From contig NZ_CP131914.1 of assembly GCF_040529045.1 (NCBI RefSeq), positions 3,394,501 to 3,458,500 on the forward strand: 64,000 nt of DNA. Reading direction: 5' to 3'. This DNA is from Xanthomonas indica. GTDB taxonomy: Bacteria; Pseudomonadota; Gammaproteobacteria; Xanthomonadales; Xanthomonadaceae. The notes under the pieces are model-generated. The model ran no database searches. It was not told where the DNA came from and saw only the letters and a list, made by a program, of their open reading frames with translations. The position numbers and the translations under genes are program-made. Below, piece after piece: positions 2,639-52,198 of this stretch (position 1 is its first letter; each line of letters begins with the position of its first letter).

Positions 2639-3142
2639 ATGAGCAAGAAACCCGTCAAGGATAAAGCAAACGGCGCGACGGCCAACAAGACCATCGCCCT
2701 GAACAAGCGCGCGCGCCACGAATACCACCTGGAGGACCGCTACGAGGCCGGCCTGGCCCTGCAGGGCTGGGAGGTGAAGTCGATCCGCGCCGGCCGCGCC
2801 AACATCGGCGAGAGCTACGCCTTCGTGCGCCAGGGCGAACTGTTCCTGTTCGGCGCGCAGATCACCCCGTTGATCCAGGCGTCCACCCATGTGGTTGCCG
2901 ACGACCGGCGCACGCGCAAGCTGCTGCTGCACCGGAACGAGATCGACAAGCTGATCGGCCGCGTCGAGCGCGACGGCTACACCCTCGTGCCCACCGCGAT
3001 GTACTGGAGCAAGAACAAGATCAAGCTCGAGATCGCGCTGGCCAAGGGCAAGCAGGACCACGACAAGCGCAACGCGGCCAAGGACCGCGACTGGGCCCGC
3101 GACAAGCAACGGATCATGCGCCGGCACAACAAGAATGCCTGA
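2639..3142 (+). CDS. smpB: SsrA-binding protein SmpB
   Basis: A 167-residue RNA-binding protein that delivers tmRNA to stalled ribosomes in trans-translation. The family core is present: [18 protein letters not shown], the [11 protein letters not shown] motif, LFGAQITPL, and the basic C-terminal tail ([14 protein letters not shown]) that enters the mRNA channel. Its RNA partner ssrA lies 3.4 kb downstream on the same strand. A GGAGA lies about 10 bases before the ATG. The stop codon is followed within eight bases by a 38-base dispersed repeat. Confidence 0.96.
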
Positions 3143-3149
3143 GGGCTGA

Positions 3150-3187
3150 GATGATCAGCCATCCGGCTGCTGAAAAGCCGGGGATTC
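3150..3187 (+). repeat. 38-base dispersed repeat, copy 1
   Basis: The copy reads GATGATCAGCCAT, then a small hairpin CCGGCT...AGCCGG, then GGGATTC. An inverted copy is at 3701-3738 and another inverted copy at 52161-52198. It begins eight bases after the smpB stop. Confidence 0.85.
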
Positions 3188-3254
3188 GGGATTTGGGATT
3201 CGCAGGGGCGGCTTCCCCGCGCGCCTCCCGCGTTCCTACCGCCTCGCCTCTCCC

Positions 3255-3277
3255 GTAGGAACGGCTTCAGCCGCGAG
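3255..3277 (+). repeat. Single REP sequence of the GTAG type
   Basis: It reads GTAGGAACGGCTTCAGCCGC followed by GAG. This is a solo copy of the half-element that forms paired REPs at 17631, 56918 and 63934. The GTAG head plus a short imperfect hairpin is the hallmark of REP elements in Stenotrophomonas and Xanthomonas. Confidence 0.75.
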
Positions 3278-3288
3278 GCGCTGAGGCC

Positions 3289-3320
3289 GGGATTGGGGAT
3301 TGGGGATTGGGGATTGGGGA
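3289..3320 (+). repeat. GGGGATT heptamer run
   Basis: About four tandem GGGATTG-phase heptamers. Runs of four G tracts of 3-4 bases could fold as a G-quadruplex. Related runs occur at 3605-3624 (C-rich strand), 41389-41422 and 51938-51984. Confidence 0.85.
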
Positions 3321-3424
3321 GTCGAGAGTCGAAGGCAGCTCCCCGGCGCAACAATTCGGCCGCGCGCAGCGCAGCTCGCCGAAGCTCGGCAGCCGCAAGC
3401 GCCCCTTGAGCGCATGAATGCCTT

Positions 3425-3447
3425 GTAGGAGCAGCTTCAGCCGCGAC
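3425..3447 (+). repeat. Single REP sequence of the GTAG type
   Basis: It reads GTAGGAGCAGCTTCAGCCGC followed by GAC. It differs by one or two bases from the copies at 3255 and 56918 and has no inverted partner nearby. Confidence 0.75.
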
Positions 3448-3604
3448 GCGACGAAGTCGGAATCTCGACACGAAGCCGTGCGATTCGGGGCGCAACGCGC
3501 GCCAGGCTTTTCCATGCCCTGATCCCAGAAAAGTTGGCCTTCATCCGCCGCAGCGAAGCAGATTCCCACACGAAAAACGATGACACCTGGGAACCGCCGT
3601 TGCA

Positions 3605-3624
3605 AATCCCCAATCCCCAATCCC
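3605..3624 (-). repeat. Heptamer run in reverse orientation
   Basis: Three AATCCCC units; the minus strand reads GGGGATT. It belongs to the same family as 3289-3320. Confidence 0.75.
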
Positions 3625-3700
3625 GGCCTCCCCGGCTGCAGCCGCTCCCACACGGGAGCCGCGCCAGCAAGGGGAGCCGCCATTGCGAATCCCCGCTCCC

Positions 3701-3738
3701 GACTCCCCGGCTTTTCAGCAGCCGAATGGCTGATCATC
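3701..3738 (-). repeat. 38-base dispersed repeat, copy 2 (inverted)
   Basis: The reverse complement matches copy 1 except for about two bases. It lies eleven bases past the stop of the minus-strand hydrolase-subtilase gene, so both copies sit just downstream of convergent genes. Confidence 0.85.
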
Positions 3739-3748
3739 CCGGCCCCGC

Positions 3749-6424
3749 TCACGTCCCCCCAAGCATCCGCATCAAGCTCGGCAGTCCACTGCCCTGCATG
3801 TAGCGATCGCGCTGCAGGTCCAGGCACTGCGCCAGCACCAGCTGCTTGACCCGGTCCGGTGCGCCGATGAACTCGCGGCGCACCGACAGGAAGGCGGCGA
3901 TCAGCCCGGACACATGCGCCGCGGCCATGCTGGTGCCGCTCATCTCCACCATCCAGGTGCCCGGATCCGCGACCGCATAGCCGTGGTGGGCCGACAGGAT
4001 CTTTTCGCCCGGCGCGACCAGGTCGGGCTTGTAGCGGCCGTCGGCCGTCGGGCCGCGCGAGGAGAAATACGAAATGCCGTAGCTGTGCGGGCTGCTCTTG
4101 TGCACCGAGCCCACCGCCAGCGATTCCTCCAGGTTCGCCGGGTCGCCGATGCTCAGATCCAGGTTCAGCGGATAGGCCTCGCCGTCGCCCTGCATCAGCC
4201 AGGCCAGGCCGTCGTTGCCGGCCGCGATCACCACCACCACGCCCTGCCGCCACAGCCGGCGCAGTTCGTTGCACAGCGGAGTGAAGCCGCAGCCGTAGCT
4301 CTCCGCGTCGAAGTAGCCGCCCAGGCTCAGGTTGACCCCGTGCACCACCAGTTCGCCGGCACGCTCGTTGAGTTCGGCCACCTGCTGCACGCCCTTGATG
4401 ATCCACGAGTCGCGGCCGTTGCCGTCGTCGTCCAGCACCTTCAACCCGTAGAGCCGCGCCAACGGTGCCATGCCGGCGAACTGCAACGGCGCGGTGGCCG
4501 GCGCGCCCGGCAGCGGCGCCTCGCATTGCCCGGCGATGATGCCGGCCACGTGGGTGCCGTGGCCGTTGCCGTCGAGCGCGTCGAAACCGGCCTCGCCCGG
4601 GCGCAGCGCGCGTGGGCGCCCGCGCTGGGTGCAGTCCCATTGGGCAAGCACGGTCGGCGGCTGCCCGGCGACGTGGAAATGCGGATGCGCCGCGGCGATG
4701 CCGCTGTCCAGCACCGCCCAGCCGATGCCGGCGCCGAGCGCGCGATAGGCCACCTGCGCCGCATCCACCTGGATCGTGCTGCGCGACTGGTAGATCAGCG
4801 CGCGCTTGCCCGCATCGCGCCACAAACGCTTGAGGTTGAGGTCGCGATAGCGCTCGCGCAGGCTTTCGATCTCGAACCGGGTCAGCCGCGCCGACACGTA
4901 GCGCTGCAGGGTGTCCTCCAGTTCGATCTGCGCATCCAGCGCCTCGCCCTGCAGCCCGGTGGAGGCCTGGGTCAGCGCGCGCAGCGCCGCGATCAGCGCA
5001 TGCTTGCGCTGCGCCGCATCGCCGGCATCGGACAATCGTTCGAGTTCGATCAGCACCTCGTGCCGATAGTCCGGCGCGCGCGCCTCCAACTGGTCGGACA
5101 GGTCCTTGATCAGCACCGGATGCGCGATCGGCTGGTCGAAGCCCACCCCCACCGCGCGCCGCACCTCGGCCCGCACGTCGGGGATGGACAGGTAGCCGGC
5201 GGCCGAATGCGGGTTGCGCTGCCAATCCGGGTTGATCTTCGAACCGGCGATGTTCTGGAAGCGCCCGTCGGCATCGGCAATGTCGTCGCTGAGATCGTCG
5301 TCCAGGGCCACCGGGTCGCGCCGCTCGGCGACGTTGACCCAGCGCGCCACGCAAGGCGGAAACGGCAGCTTCGGCGTTCCGGTCCACGCCTTGAACATGC
5401 TGCGCACCACCGGCAGGCCCAGCGGCGAGCCGAGCGTGAGCAGCAGCGAGACCTCGCAATCCTGCAGCTGCAGCTCGCGCAGCACGTCGTAGGCGATCAG
5501 CGAGCCCTGGCTGTGCGCGATCACCACGAACGGGCCGCCGCCGGCGCGGATGCGCTGCAGCAGGCTCTCGCGCATCTGCGTGCGTCGCGCCGGCACGAAG
5601 AAGAAGTCGTGCACGTCCTGCAGCAGCGCCGCGGAGATCAGCTTGAGCAACGCGCGGTTGAGCACGTCGACCACGCCTTGCGCATGCACGCCAGTGGTTG
5701 CGGTTGCCGTCGCTGGCGCCGCTGCCTCCACCTCGTCCAGCAGCTGCTGCAGCCGTGCGCGCTCGACCTCGCTGGCGGCCAGGGTGTCGGCGAGCTGGCG
5801 CAGATCGGCCAGCTGCGGGGCCACGCCGAGCGCGCTGAGGACACGCTGCTCGGCCTGGTTCAACACCGGGCCGCGATCCTGATCCTGGCAATCGCCCGGT
5901 TCCGGCGACGGATAGCGCTCGCGATTGACCCAATAGGCCATGCGCGTGCGCTCGCCCATCGCGCGCCCGAACAGGGCGCGGTCCCACTGGCAGCGCAATA
6001 CCTCGGCCGGCGGCTTGTTGCCGATGCCATGGATGTAGACGACCGTGCGTGCCTGCCCCTGCGCCAGCGAGCCTTCGCCGGTGGCCTTGGGCCGCAACGC
6101 GCTGCCGGCCGGCGGCGTGGCGGCGGCCATCGCCGAGGCAGGTCTGCTGGCGCTTGGAGCCGCGATATTGGACTTGGGCGGTGCAGCGGCCCGTGCCGAT
6201 GCGGGTGCCCTCGTCGCTGTCGCTGTCGGTGCCGGCGTCGCCGTCTTCGGCGCCTTGGCGGCACGCGTGCCACCCGCCGTCGTCTTGCGCGCTGCCGCTC
6301 TCGGCTTGGCGGCGGATGTCGCCTGCGCCTTGACCGGCGCCTTGCCGGGTGTGGGCCTAGAGGAGGTGACGGATGCCTTCGGCGCGGACCCGTTGCTGCG
6401 GCCACGCGGCTGTCTGCTTGCCAT
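3749..6424 (-). CDS. Alpha/beta hydrolase - subtilase (S8) fusion protein
   Basis: An 891-residue protein with two enzymatic modules. Residues 1-115 are a basic low-complexity tail rich in Ala, Pro, Thr and Lys, with no signal peptide. Residues about 125-440 look like an alpha/beta hydrolase: YIHGIGNK oxyanion region, nucleophile elbow AHSQG (Ser305), Asp370 in RRDPVA and His406 in NPHSAAGYL. After a helical linker, residues about 570-891 form a subtilase with Asp573 (VLDSGI), His622 (GNGHGTHVAG), Asn737 (AAGNDG) and Ser832 (SGTSMAAAH), so all catalytic residues are present. The start at 6424 has GGAG upstream; the frame extends 31 codons further but with no ribosome site. It stands alone between repeats and ssrA. 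Substrate and location are unknown; the lack of an export signal argues for a cytoplasmic or non-Sec-exported enzyme. Confidence 0.85.
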   Translation of the reverse strand: MASRQPRGRSNGSAPKASVTSSRPTPGKAPVKAQATSAAKPRAAARKTTAGGTRAAKAPKTATPAPTATATRAPASARAAAPPKSNIAAPSASRPASAMAAATPPAGSALRPKATGEGSLAQGQARTVVYIHGIGNKPPAEVLRCQWDRALFGRAMGERTRMAYWVNRERYPSPEPGDCQDQDRGPVLNQAEQRVLSALGVAPQLADLRQLADTLAASEVERARLQQLLDEVEAAAPATATATTGVHAQGVVDVLNRALLKLISAALLQDVHDFFFVPARRTQMRESLLQRIRAGGGPFVVIAHSQGSLIAYDVLRELQLQDCEVSLLLTLGSPLGLPVVRSMFKAWTGTPKLPFPPCVARWVNVAERRDPVALDDDLSDDIADADGRFQNIAGSKINPDWQRNPHSAAGYLSIPDVRAEVRRAVGVGFDQPIAHPVLIKDLSDQLEARAPDYRHEVLIELERLSDAGDAAQRKHALIAALRALTQASTGLQGEALDAQIELEDTLQRYVSARLTRFEIESLRERYRDLNLKRLWRDAGKRALIYQSRSTIQVDAAQVAYRALGAGIGWAVLDSGIAAAHPHFHVAGQPPTVLAQWDCTQRGRPRALRPGEAGFDALDGNGHGTHVAGIIAGQCEAPLPGAPATAPLQFAGMAPLARLYGLKVLDDDGNGRDSWIIKGVQQVAELNERAGELVVHGVNLSLGGYFDAESYGCGFTPLCNELRRLWRQGVVVVIAAGNDGLAWLMQGDGEAYPLNLDLSIGDPANLEESLAVGSVHKSSPHSYGISYFSSRGPTADGRYKPDLVAPGEKILSAHHGYAVADPGTWMVEMSGTSMAAAHVSGLIAAFLSVRREFIGAPDRVKQLVLAQCLDLQRDRYMQGSGLPSLMRMLGGT

Positions 6425-6520
6425 TGCGCTGCTCCATGCCTGGGGGAATGCCTGGGGGACGGCGGCGTGACAGGGCCGGCGTCGCAGTGAAGCCAGCTTA
6501 AGCGTGGTCTGTCTCAAGGC

Positions 6521-6577: not shown

Positions 6578-6929
6578 GGGGGTGCACTGGTTTCGACGGG
6601 GGTTGCAAAATCGCTTGGCGCATGCCGAGGGGGCAGCTTTCCTCGTAAATCCAGCAGCAAACTTATAGTTGCCAACGACGACAACTACGCTCTGGCCGCT
6701 TAAGGCCTAGCCCCGAAATCGCTTGTGTCCGTGCTCGCGACGTAGGGTCATTATCACGGAATCGCCGGTGGTGGCTGCCTGTCAGCCATTGGCTAAATCA
6801 AGCAGGCTGGTCCTGGGATGCGCTTCGCACATCGTGCTGTTCCGGGATGAGATCCAACGATGAGCTAAGCATGTAGTGCCGGGGATGGAGTGCCTTCGGA
6901 CGGCGGTTCGATTCCGCCCACCTCCACCA
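6578..6929 (+). ncRNA. ssrA: Transfer-messenger RNA (tmRNA)
   Basis: This 352-nucleotide RNA rescues stalled ribosomes with SmpB. The 5' end GGGGGTG pairs with CACCTCC just before the encoded CCA (6927-6929), giving a seven-pair acceptor stem with one G-U. The conserved GTTTCGACGG and the T-arm (GGTTCGATTCC) are present. The tag frame is at 6671-6703: GCC AAC GAC GAC AAC TAC GCT CTG GCC GCT TAA, giving ANDDNYALAA. The tag ends in the ALAA degradation signal recognised by ClpXP. smpB lies upstream on the same strand. Boundaries are set by the acceptor pairing. Confidence 0.96.
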
Positions 6930-8712: not shown

Positions 8713-10236
8713 CTAGTGCGCGAGAAACCGCTCGGCGGTGCGCAAGCCGAGTGCCATCTGTGTCAGGGCCGGATTGGCCGCCAATGCGCTGGGGAAGACC
8801 GAGTTGTCGCAGACGTAGAGATTGCCGATGTCGAACGAACGGCCATCCGGATCGACCACGGCCTGCGCGGGATCGCGGCCCATGCGACAGGTGCCGAGCG
8901 TGTGTGCCGAGCGCGCGGCGGCGAAGATGTCCTGGGCGCCGGCCGCCTCCCAGATCGCCTGCAGCGTGCGTCTGGCGTGGGCATCGATCGCCTGTTCGTT
9001 GGGTCCGTAGCTGAAGTCGACCCGCGCCTTGCGCAGGCCGAAGGCATCGCACTCGTCGGCGAGCGTCAGGCGATTGGTGTCCTGCGGCAGGCATTCGCCA
9101 TTGATGCCGATGCCGGCCAGACGGTTGTAGCGCGTCATGGTCCGCACCAGCGCCGCGCCCCAGCGGCCGGCACCACGCGCCAGCGTGTTGGCGAGCGTCA
9201 CCGGCTGCACGCCCAGGCTCTGGATCAGATAGCCGCCGGCAAACTCGGCCTGCGCGGGGCGCAGCATGTCCTCGCTCATCAGCGAGGAGGGGTAGCCGCG
9301 GTTCATGCGCATGTCCATGTCGAACGTGCCCCAGACCTGGGTCGCGACATGTGCCATGAAATTGCGCCCGACCTGTCCACTGGAGTTGGCCAGTCCCAGG
9401 TTCAGCAGCAAGCGCGGCGTTTCCACGCCGCCGGCGCATAGAAACAAGGCCGTGCAACGCTGGCGCAGTTCGCGCTCGCCCTGCCGGTAGACGACGCCGG
9501 TGACCGCGCCCAGGCTGTTGCGCTCGATGCCGACGACCCGGCAATCGGTGCGCAGGTCCGCACCGTGCGCCCGTGCCAGCGGCAGCCAGGTCGTGTCCAC
9601 GCTGACCTTGGCGCCATTGCTGCAGCCCTGATGACACGCACCGCAGTTGTTGCAGGCCACGCGCGTGCCCCAGTGCGGCTGTTCGTGCGGCCGGGTGACT
9701 AGCGCCGCCGGTGCATCGGCGGCCGTGATGCCGAGCGCACGGCAGCCGCGCTCCATCGCCTCGGCGGGTGCGTTGCGCTGGGCAGGCGGGAAGGCATAGC
9801 AGCGCTCTCCGTCCCATGGGTAGACCGCCGGCCCGGACACGCCGATGAAGCGTTCGACGCGCTGGAGGTAGGACAGCAGTTCTTGGTGCGCGATCGGCCA
9901 GTCTTCGCCCTGGCTGGTCTGCGTGCGTAGTTGCAGATCGCGCGGGTCCGGGCGCGGGCAGAACGCGCCCCAGTGCAGCGTCGATCCGCCGAGCCCCGCA
10001 CCGGAATTGTTCGGGCCGAACGCCGTCGGCGTCCGCCCTCCGCTGAGGCGCTCTTCCATCCAGTAGATGTCCGTCGCCAGTTCGTCCGCGCGGTGCGCAT
10101 CCGGGCCGAACGCGGCGCCGGCTTCCAGCACCACCACCGAGACGCCGGCCTGCGCCAGTCGCGCGGCCAGCGGACCGCCGCCGGCGCCGCTGCCGACCAC
10201 GACCGCATCCACCGCCGCAGTCGATACGACGCTCAT
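8713..10236 (-). CDS. GMC family FAD-dependent oxidoreductase with cysteine cluster
   Basis: A 507-residue flavoprotein that oxidises an alcohol or sugar hydroxyl. The FAD-binding fold starts at residue 11 with VVVGSGAGGGPLAARL; GLGGSTLHWG at 81-90 is the second GMC signature. The C-terminal substrate domain contains the His of SAHTLGTCRMG and the closing VCDNSVFPSALAANP segment. Residues 195-205 carry four cysteines, C-x2-C-x2-C-x3-C (ACNNCGACHQGC), resembling the iron-sulfur insertion of FAD-glucose/gluconate dehydrogenase catalytic subunits; that it binds a cluster is an inference. The start codon overlaps the stop of the upstream gene (ATGA), so the two are probably translationally coupled. 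No Tat or Sec signal is visible. Confidence 0.9.
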   Translation of the reverse strand: MSVVSTAAVDAVVVGSGAGGGPLAARLAQAGVSVVVLEAGAAFGPDAHRADELATDIYWMEERLSGGRTPTAFGPNNSGAGLGGSTLHWGAFCPRPDPRDLQLRTQTSQGEDWPIAHQELLSYLQRVERFIGVSGPAVYPWDGERCYAFPPAQRNAPAEAMERGCRALGITAADAPAALVTRPHEQPHWGTRVACNNCGACHQGCSNGAKVSVDTTWLPLARAHGADLRTDCRVVGIERNSLGAVTGVVYRQGERELRQRCTALFLCAGGVETPRLLLNLGLANSSGQVGRNFMAHVATQVWGTFDMDMRMNRGYPSSLMSEDMLRPAQAEFAGGYLIQSLGVQPVTLANTLARGAGRWGAALVRTMTRYNRLAGIGINGECLPQDTNRLTLADECDAFGLRKARVDFSYGPNEQAIDAHARRTLQAIWEAAGAQDIFAAARSAHTLGTCRMGRDPAQAVVDPDGRSFDIGNLYVCDNSVFPSALAANPALTQMALGLRTAERFLAH

Positions 10237-52160: not shown

Positions 52161-52198
52161 GAATCCCCGGCTTTTCAGCAGCCGAATGGCTGATCATC
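52161..52198 (-). repeat. 38-base dispersed repeat, copy 3
   Basis: Same sequence as 3701-3738 and inverse of 3150-3187, starting GAATCCCCGGCTTTTCAGCA. It lies about 75 bases upstream of the deiminase-like start. Confidence 0.85.

Follow-up and report, generated by a model that had tools for sequence, protein, structure and literature searches.

In VMAP (vWA-MoxR) systems, the caspase domain always comes with a neighbouring alpha/beta-hydrolase gene (Kaur et al. 2020, PMC7159879). Tuck et al. 2025 (PMC12799240) describe nuclease-protease pairs with pro-nucleases that a protease activates: the nuclease is gated until it is cleaved. Kaur et al. 2021 (PMC8195603) count alpha/beta hydrolases, like caspase and trypsin domains, among the effectors of conflict systems, with membrane lipids as their target. 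These statements, and the comparisons that build on them, refer to the accessible parts of the three papers. Here we analyse a gene of Xanthomonas indica that joins an alpha/beta hydrolase to a subtilase of family S8 in one protein. It lies at positions 3749-6424 (minus strand) of a 64,000-nucleotide (nt) window, the whole stretch of DNA analysed (GCF_040529045.1, contig NZ_CP131914.1, 3,394,501-3,458,500, forward strand). In the plasmid loci examined, relatives of its hydrolase nearly always adjoin a protease, often in immune-type clusters, so that the fusion resembles an effector under protease control with both parts in one chain. It is most likely a protease-gated lipid hydrolase, with predicted activity, trigger and substrate. 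The pairing of caspase and alpha/beta hydrolase was already known; this analysis adds that the Xanthomonas fusion belongs to a hydrolase family found in such loci, and also that trypsin, CHAT and S8 can replace caspase as the partner.

The fusion resembles VMAP systems in that its hydrolase family is found in VMAP loci (L073, L081 and L084 of our set), and differs from them in having an S8 instead of a caspase domain and one chain instead of two genes. No MoxR, vWA, VMAP or MBL nuclease gene lies beside it; its neighbours in Xanthomonadaceae are smpB and ssrA. In the accessible text of PMC7159879 the word 'subtilisin' appears a single time, in connection with NucA nucleases, and 'subtilase' is missing; both words are absent from that of PMC8195603. 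The hydrolases of the latter study, which are joined to bacterial death-like domains, are likened to the fusion by their description as effectors. Nuclease-protease pairs and Canu likewise combine a protease, there trypsin or caspase, with another effector that is itself a hydrolytic enzyme. In the fusion, however, the effector is an alpha/beta hydrolase and not an MBL nuclease, a Pfam scan revealed no MBL domain in the chain, and activation by cleavage is putative. No description of an S8-hydrolase fusion was found among titles and beginnings of abstracts, a search with many subscription papers outside its coverage, and the architecture does not appear in the accessible part of PMC2605481.

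The fusion gene (P0001) is an intact open reading frame (ORF) of 891 aa, stop-free on translation; all its features are on the minus strand. The S8 domain comprises residues 556-885 (3770-4759). Pfam Peptidase_S8 matched residues 570-878 with an E-value of 3.2e-43 (148.5 bits; cut-off 21.8), and the best 60 of 152 matches in a PDB sequence search (E <=0.01) all fell on this half. The PADLOC model 'subtilase' (PDLC03014) matched residues 358-884 with E 2.8e-68; the system of this model is unstated and no system was assigned. The complete family triad is present with Asp573 (4706-4708), His622 (4559-4561) and Ser832 (3929-3931), together with the oxyanion residue N737. The alpha/beta hydrolase domain with a helical insertion (residues 126-430; 5135-6049) was delimited by alignments, predicted structure and profile comparisons. 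It contains the nucleophile Ser305 in an HSQG motif (5510-5512), Asp370 (5315-5317) and His406 (5207-5209). The nucleophile elbow and the Ser-Asp-His order agree with the pattern of the alpha/beta hydrolase superfamily. The order of strands and helices in the model would fit the fold, with fold-search lists that were filled by S8 structures. Against Pfam, the N-terminal half in the full chain gave alpha/beta-hydrolase matches that were all weak and below threshold, and the hydrolase domain alone gave no curated family above cut-off (Abhydrolase_6: 22.6 bits; cut-off 26.3). Residues 1-124 (6053-6424) form a basic, low-complexity and unconserved tail, predicted to be disordered (pLDDT 30-40), with 20 K+R and one D+E. 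Among the 22 homologue tails listed, 21 have more K+R than D+E, a count that covered just 27 residues of the window protein's own tail; the exception is L044, and the L050 protein lacks a tail. A GGAG at 6432-6435, 7 nt ahead of the ATG at 6424, was recognised by eye as the likely ribosome-binding site.

A single scan of GTDB species genomes revealed 55 loci encoding a relative of the fusion, 48 in Xanthomonadaceae (tree label Lysobacteraceae) and seven outside. The latter belong to two Nitrosomonas, a beta-proteobacterial metagenome-assembled genome (MAG), a Rhodocyclaceae MAG, Thiobacillus, Azospirillum and the cyanobacterium Kastovskya, and show 46-52% identity to the window protein in the best segment. 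Residues 126-880 are stop-free in one frame in 49 of the 55 loci; in L008, L009 and L018 a stop lies further upstream, within the matched part of the tail, and 126-880 is still open. Broken or short forms occur at 6/55 loci, some of which may be sequencing errors. The fusion is split into pieces in different frames in L038, L039, L041 and L054, the match in L049 reaches residue 602 only, and L053 retains the hydrolase but not the protease. S305, D370, H406, D573, H622, N737 and S832 are invariant in all 23 aligned homologues. The initial annotation had proposed a true fusion of two enzymes with intact triads (these residues except N737) behind a basic tail, and all of this was borne out, including the co-occurrence of both halves across homologues in Xanthomonas and beyond. 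A sequencing frameshift or chance fusion as the source is excluded, since the two halves share a reading frame in 49 loci; separate genes for the halves do exist elsewhere, with other partners. The suggested domain search thus succeeded for the S8 half, and for the hydrolase half remained below threshold. The annotation had the two modules and the tail right, and overlooked a third, propeptide-like domain between the enzymes, which only became apparent in the predicted structure.

Relatives of the hydrolase half were sought in plasmid records. The N-terminal half of the fusion detected six records, and relatives from two of these, used as queries, detected 54 and 44; the three sets overlap. 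From these, 19 loci (L066-L084) were chosen for variety, not at random. The N-terminal half aligned with the hydrolases of L066 and L067 at an hhalign E-value of 5.2e-34. An alignment of 14 family members contained 17 invariant columns, including Ser305, Asp370 and His406, so that the triad is held in 14/14 members down to 20% identity; 13 of the 14 match Abhydrolase_6 at E up to 0.1. Judged by these alignments, the hydrolase half of the fusion and the paired plasmid hydrolases are one family. A protease domain adjoins the hydrolase or is fused to it in 18 of the 19 loci, 11 times by library match or annotation and seven times by eye. Library matches revealed trypsin next to the hydrolase in L066 and L080 and fused to it in L072, and CHAT in L071. 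Caspase was assigned by Pfam in L067, L068 and L078 and by record annotation in L069, L070, L074 and L079. Caspase-like domains were recognised by eye from a His-Gly and an Asp-x-Cys motif in L073, L075, L077 (whose neighbour was outside the Pfam scan), L081, L082, L083 and L084. No protease was present among the annotated neighbours in L076 (Acinetobacter). In L073 and L081-L084 Pfam detected VMAP-M2 or NTPase and WD40 domains only: L073, L081 and L084 have a VMAP-M2 gene, with a caspase-like N-terminus by eye, and an adjoining MoxR or AAA ATPase gene, and L082 and L083 encode NTPase-WD40 proteins. The family's pairing with proteases is sometimes found inside VMAP-MoxR or NACHT-WD40 systems, which are NTPase-controlled biological conflict systems. 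The same family adjoins caspase, trypsin or CHAT and is fused to trypsin or S8, and gene context shows this pairing of protease and hydrolase.

Two of these plasmid loci display further features. On the Sinorhizobium terangae plasmid (L067, 2920-8647) a caspase ORF is followed by ORFs for an alpha/beta hydrolase and a patatin. The Streptomyces plasmid (L072, 201-3900) encodes an S8 peptidase and, two genes further along, the trypsin-hydrolase protein mentioned above. Its hydrolase belongs to the same family, and this joining of protease and hydrolase seems to have arisen independently.

A profile of the 14-member alignment was compared with the PDB. The top matches were PITPNM1/Nir2 (E 0.0026) and group XV phospholipase A2 (0.003), followed by GPI inositol-deacylase (0.0045), a putative lipase (0.0061) and LCAT (0.033). 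The matches at E 0.0026-0.04 are lipid-acting or lipid-related proteins. The resemblance to PITPNM1 presumably points to DDHD-type phospholipases.

In the hydrolase tree the fusions form one clade (98/94), and its sister group consists of the hydrolases of L066 and L080, which are paired with trypsin (100/98); with midpoint rooting, the caspase-paired members occupy the remaining branches. The fusions are also one clade in the S8 tree (99/100), nearest to L056-L058, which are paired with another hydrolase family (89/88). Long-branch warnings apply above all to L072, L076 and L077 in the hydrolase tree and to L058-L061 and L072 in the S8 tree. From the two trees we infer that one fusion event probably joined halves from two pair lineages and that transfer between phyla, and then descent at one locus in Xanthomonadaceae, would have followed.

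The closest plasmid relatives found for the S8 half are genes of Rhizobium, Sinorhizobium and Rhodococcus. The Rhizobium and Rhodococcus two-gene loci resemble the fusion in that an alpha/beta hydrolase follows the S8 gene; in contrast to the fusion, the genes are separate, S8 comes first and the hydrolase is of another family. In L056-L058, all three of which were read, the gene after S8 has a GHSFG elbow. Comparison of this family B hydrolase with the N-terminal half of the fusion by hhalign was not significant (probability 13), whereas it matched partners of C25 peptidases at E 2.2e-38 and a Gemmobacter gene near CHAT at 1.6e-28. Family B (L056-L058, L062-L065) as a separate version of the N-terminal half was therefore not supported. 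A Miltoncostaea plasmid (L059, 5515-9653) encodes an S8 peptidase of the fusion's subfamily, then an MBL protein (LmuA, Avs1a and RTasMBL models) and then a Tle1-like hydrolase. This row resembles the nuclease-protease pairs as described in the accessible text and is a possible S8 version of them. In a Rhizobium plasmid (L061, 4863-6623) the S8 peptidase has a TIR-like C-terminus by eye, and an IS6 transposase gene adjoins it.

The predicted structure (mean pLDDT 64.4, moderate confidence) displayed a subtilisin-type propeptide fold at about residues 453-542 (4799-5068), between hydrolase and S8 domain. Pro-forms (3whi, 3afg and PCSK9) head the fold-search list, with alignments from model residue 453 on. 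Among the 50 matches listed, those starting at residues 442-456 align over 300-343 residues and those starting at 538-556 over 232-290. The fusion is like these pro-subtilisins in having the propeptide fold followed by S8, and unlike them in that a hydrolase precedes the propeptide. The pro-subtilisins 3whi, 3afg and PCSK9 are secreted proteins. Autoprocessing is likely because the propeptide sits between the halves, and a low-confidence linker (residues 545-560; 4745-4792; pLDDT <50) is the candidate site.

Our best explanation, to which we give an even chance, is that the protein is a single-chain protease-hydrolase pair without an adjoining NTPase, a double zymogen in which the protease gates a lipid hydrolase and which leads to cell arrest or death. 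By analogy with the nuclease-protease pairs, where cleavage opens the nuclease, the protease would control the hydrolase and not the reverse. The chain would be quiet in the cytoplasm, with the protease held by its own propeptide and the hydrolase by the helical insertion or by tethering. A trigger, which might be infection, membrane stress or translation stress, would cause autoprocessing near residues 542-560 and perhaps further cuts in the variable hydrolase loops at ~176-206 and ~238-252. The freed hydrolase would then act on an acyl ester or a lipid, with membrane phospholipid as the likeliest substrate, and this attack would cause arrest or death of the cell. In bacterial gasdermins a protease likewise lies next to a latent membrane effector, a comparison of how the parts work; the fusion would have an enzyme instead of a pore former. 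More tentatively, the protein may be a suicide switch in one polypeptide, an intracellular pro-subtilisin and pro-phospholipase with the propeptide as hinge, derived from mobile conflict-type pairs by a partner swap (trypsin or caspase to S8) and fusion, which has no NTPase sensor, uses the protease as sensor and is near-core in Xanthomonas. The context gives a lead towards an immune role. The initial annotation had suggested coupled cleavage or self-processing. The propeptide fold and the proteases adjoining the family make this likelier, and both remain putative. It had also seen no hint of the target; relatives of each half in two-gene and NTPase systems do suggest a role, and they explain the fusion better than its own locus does. 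With protease and candidate effector on one chain, it is the simplest object for testing such control, and it has homologues in bacteria that are not known as pathogens, such as Nitrosomonas europaea and Pseudoxanthomonas.

Several observations weigh against a protease-gated lipid hydrolase. No propeptide family matched the sequence of the region between the enzymes, and the propeptide is known by its fold alone, from a model of the above pLDDT. No conserved cut site was seen, because the candidate hydrolase loops are poorly conserved. In Pseudoxanthomonas gei (L053, 5977-7077) a hydrolase stands alone at the ssrA-smpB site as a 366-aa ORF that keeps HSLG, Asp and His; an intact-looking triad without protease is hard to reconcile with a hydrolase that strictly depends on the protease, and this hydrolase may be harmless, or useful, on its own. 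The 18/19 pairing comes from loci chosen non-randomly, without a background rate for protease genes near unrelated hydrolases, and seven of its caspase calls are motifs read by eye, one of them (L075) without a Pfam match. The PDB profile matches are weak and mostly confined to short stretches around the nucleophile, and an IroE-like serine hydrolase and polyketide thioesterases come next in that list (E >=0.06). No NTPase or sensor gene adjoins the fusion gene in the window. Within Xanthomonas the gene resembles a core gene and keeps its site, in contrast to defence genes with their patchy distribution, and the parts of the ORF lists read by eye around the loci outside Xanthomonadaceae looked like ordinary chromosomal genes, e.g. 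for glycyl-tRNA synthetase and glucose-6-phosphate dehydrogenase. We know of no activity, cleavage or phage phenotype for the fusion.

Core-like presence speaks for domesticated or housekeeping use. The module may be domesticated in Xanthomonas and Pseudoxanthomonas because there is no NTPase sensor at the site and it is kept at one locus. A bifunctional housekeeping enzyme without any part in immunity, which would clear proteins and lipids that are damaged or acylated, is a tentative alternative. A search of 20 Xanthomonas genomes is in its favour, with a full-length stop-free match in 17, as are the constant place between ssrA and smpB and the missing NTPase neighbour. Both catalytic domains are also under purifying selection: Nei-Gojobori dN/dS values for nine pairs were 0.061-0.344 for the hydrolase and 0.017-0.328 for S8, next to 0.064-0.509 for the propeptide region and 0.366-0.786 for the tail. 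However, one of the 20 genomes contains only a fragment and two small ones (3.5 and 3.7 Mb) only weak matches; the gene also appears dispensable because of the broken or short loci, and hydrolases related to the N-terminal half are found in surroundings of the conflict type.

Proteases occur with many accessory domains, and the hydrolase could serve for targeting or inhibition without being catalytically active, with only the protease at work. The lack of a Pfam match above cut-off for this domain would agree with such a role, which is nevertheless improbable given the invariant Ser-Asp-His in all aligned fusions and the wider family, and its retention in the hydrolase-only locus of P. gei.

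The initial annotation had taken the locus as uninformative. Its place turned out to be conserved in Xanthomonadaceae, where the gene sits between smpB downstream (window 2639-3142, plus strand; ORF list and searches) and ssrA upstream (6578-6929, plus strand; RNA annotation and searches), convergent with the former and divergent from the latter. The transfer-messenger RNA (tmRNA) gene ssrA was detected in 46 of the 48 Xanthomonadaceae loci (not in L035, a short contig, or L054) and smpB in 47 (not in L049; kilobases off in L036 and L041). This would suit an accessory of trans-translation, with ester hydrolase and protease acting on stalled peptidyl-tRNA or tagged products. Such a function is very improbable: neither gene was found in the seven loci outside the family, with a Xanthomonas protein as smpB query, and the synteny may be passive because of the gene orientations. 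That the protein is secreted as a virulence factor or acts as a toxin between bacteria is just as improbable, even though Xanthomonas includes plant pathogens and Tle1-like phospholipases, one of them beside the related Miltoncostaea S8 gene, are alpha/beta hydrolases, given that no export signal was noticed (no signal-peptide predictor was run), that homologues occur in Nitrosomonas, Thiobacillus and a cyanobacterium, and that the ORF lists, as far as they were read, showed no obvious genes for secretion or immunity (no dedicated search was made).

Other assignments were rejected. The fusion matched 33 phage records, in each case over less than 80% of its length, and the ten matches listed are confined to parts between residues 463 and 888; a phage origin was dismissed. 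The IetAS antiphage system was discarded (IetS 27 bits, cut-off 900; PADLOC IetS matches partial only), as was a T7SS mycosin naming, for which the defence-library match was far under cut-off. A long ORF on the plus strand opposite the fusion gene (3914-6490) is presumably a composition shadow.

In Nitrosomonas europaea (L043, 8247-9258) a second stretch resembling the final 39 codons of the fusion gene lies ~0.9 kb downstream and is 56% identical to those of the gene in the window. A PemK/MazF-like ORF (8737-9078, by eye) is located between the gene end and this duplicate-like stretch, as if a cassette had been inserted and had duplicated the gene end. In the window, the segment between smpB and the fusion gene (3143-3745) contains 75-nt inverted repeats, 87% complementary and 453 nt apart, which look like a small non-autonomous mobile element. 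The 32-mer core of this element has a third copy at 52164-52195 on the minus strand, where none is expected by chance.

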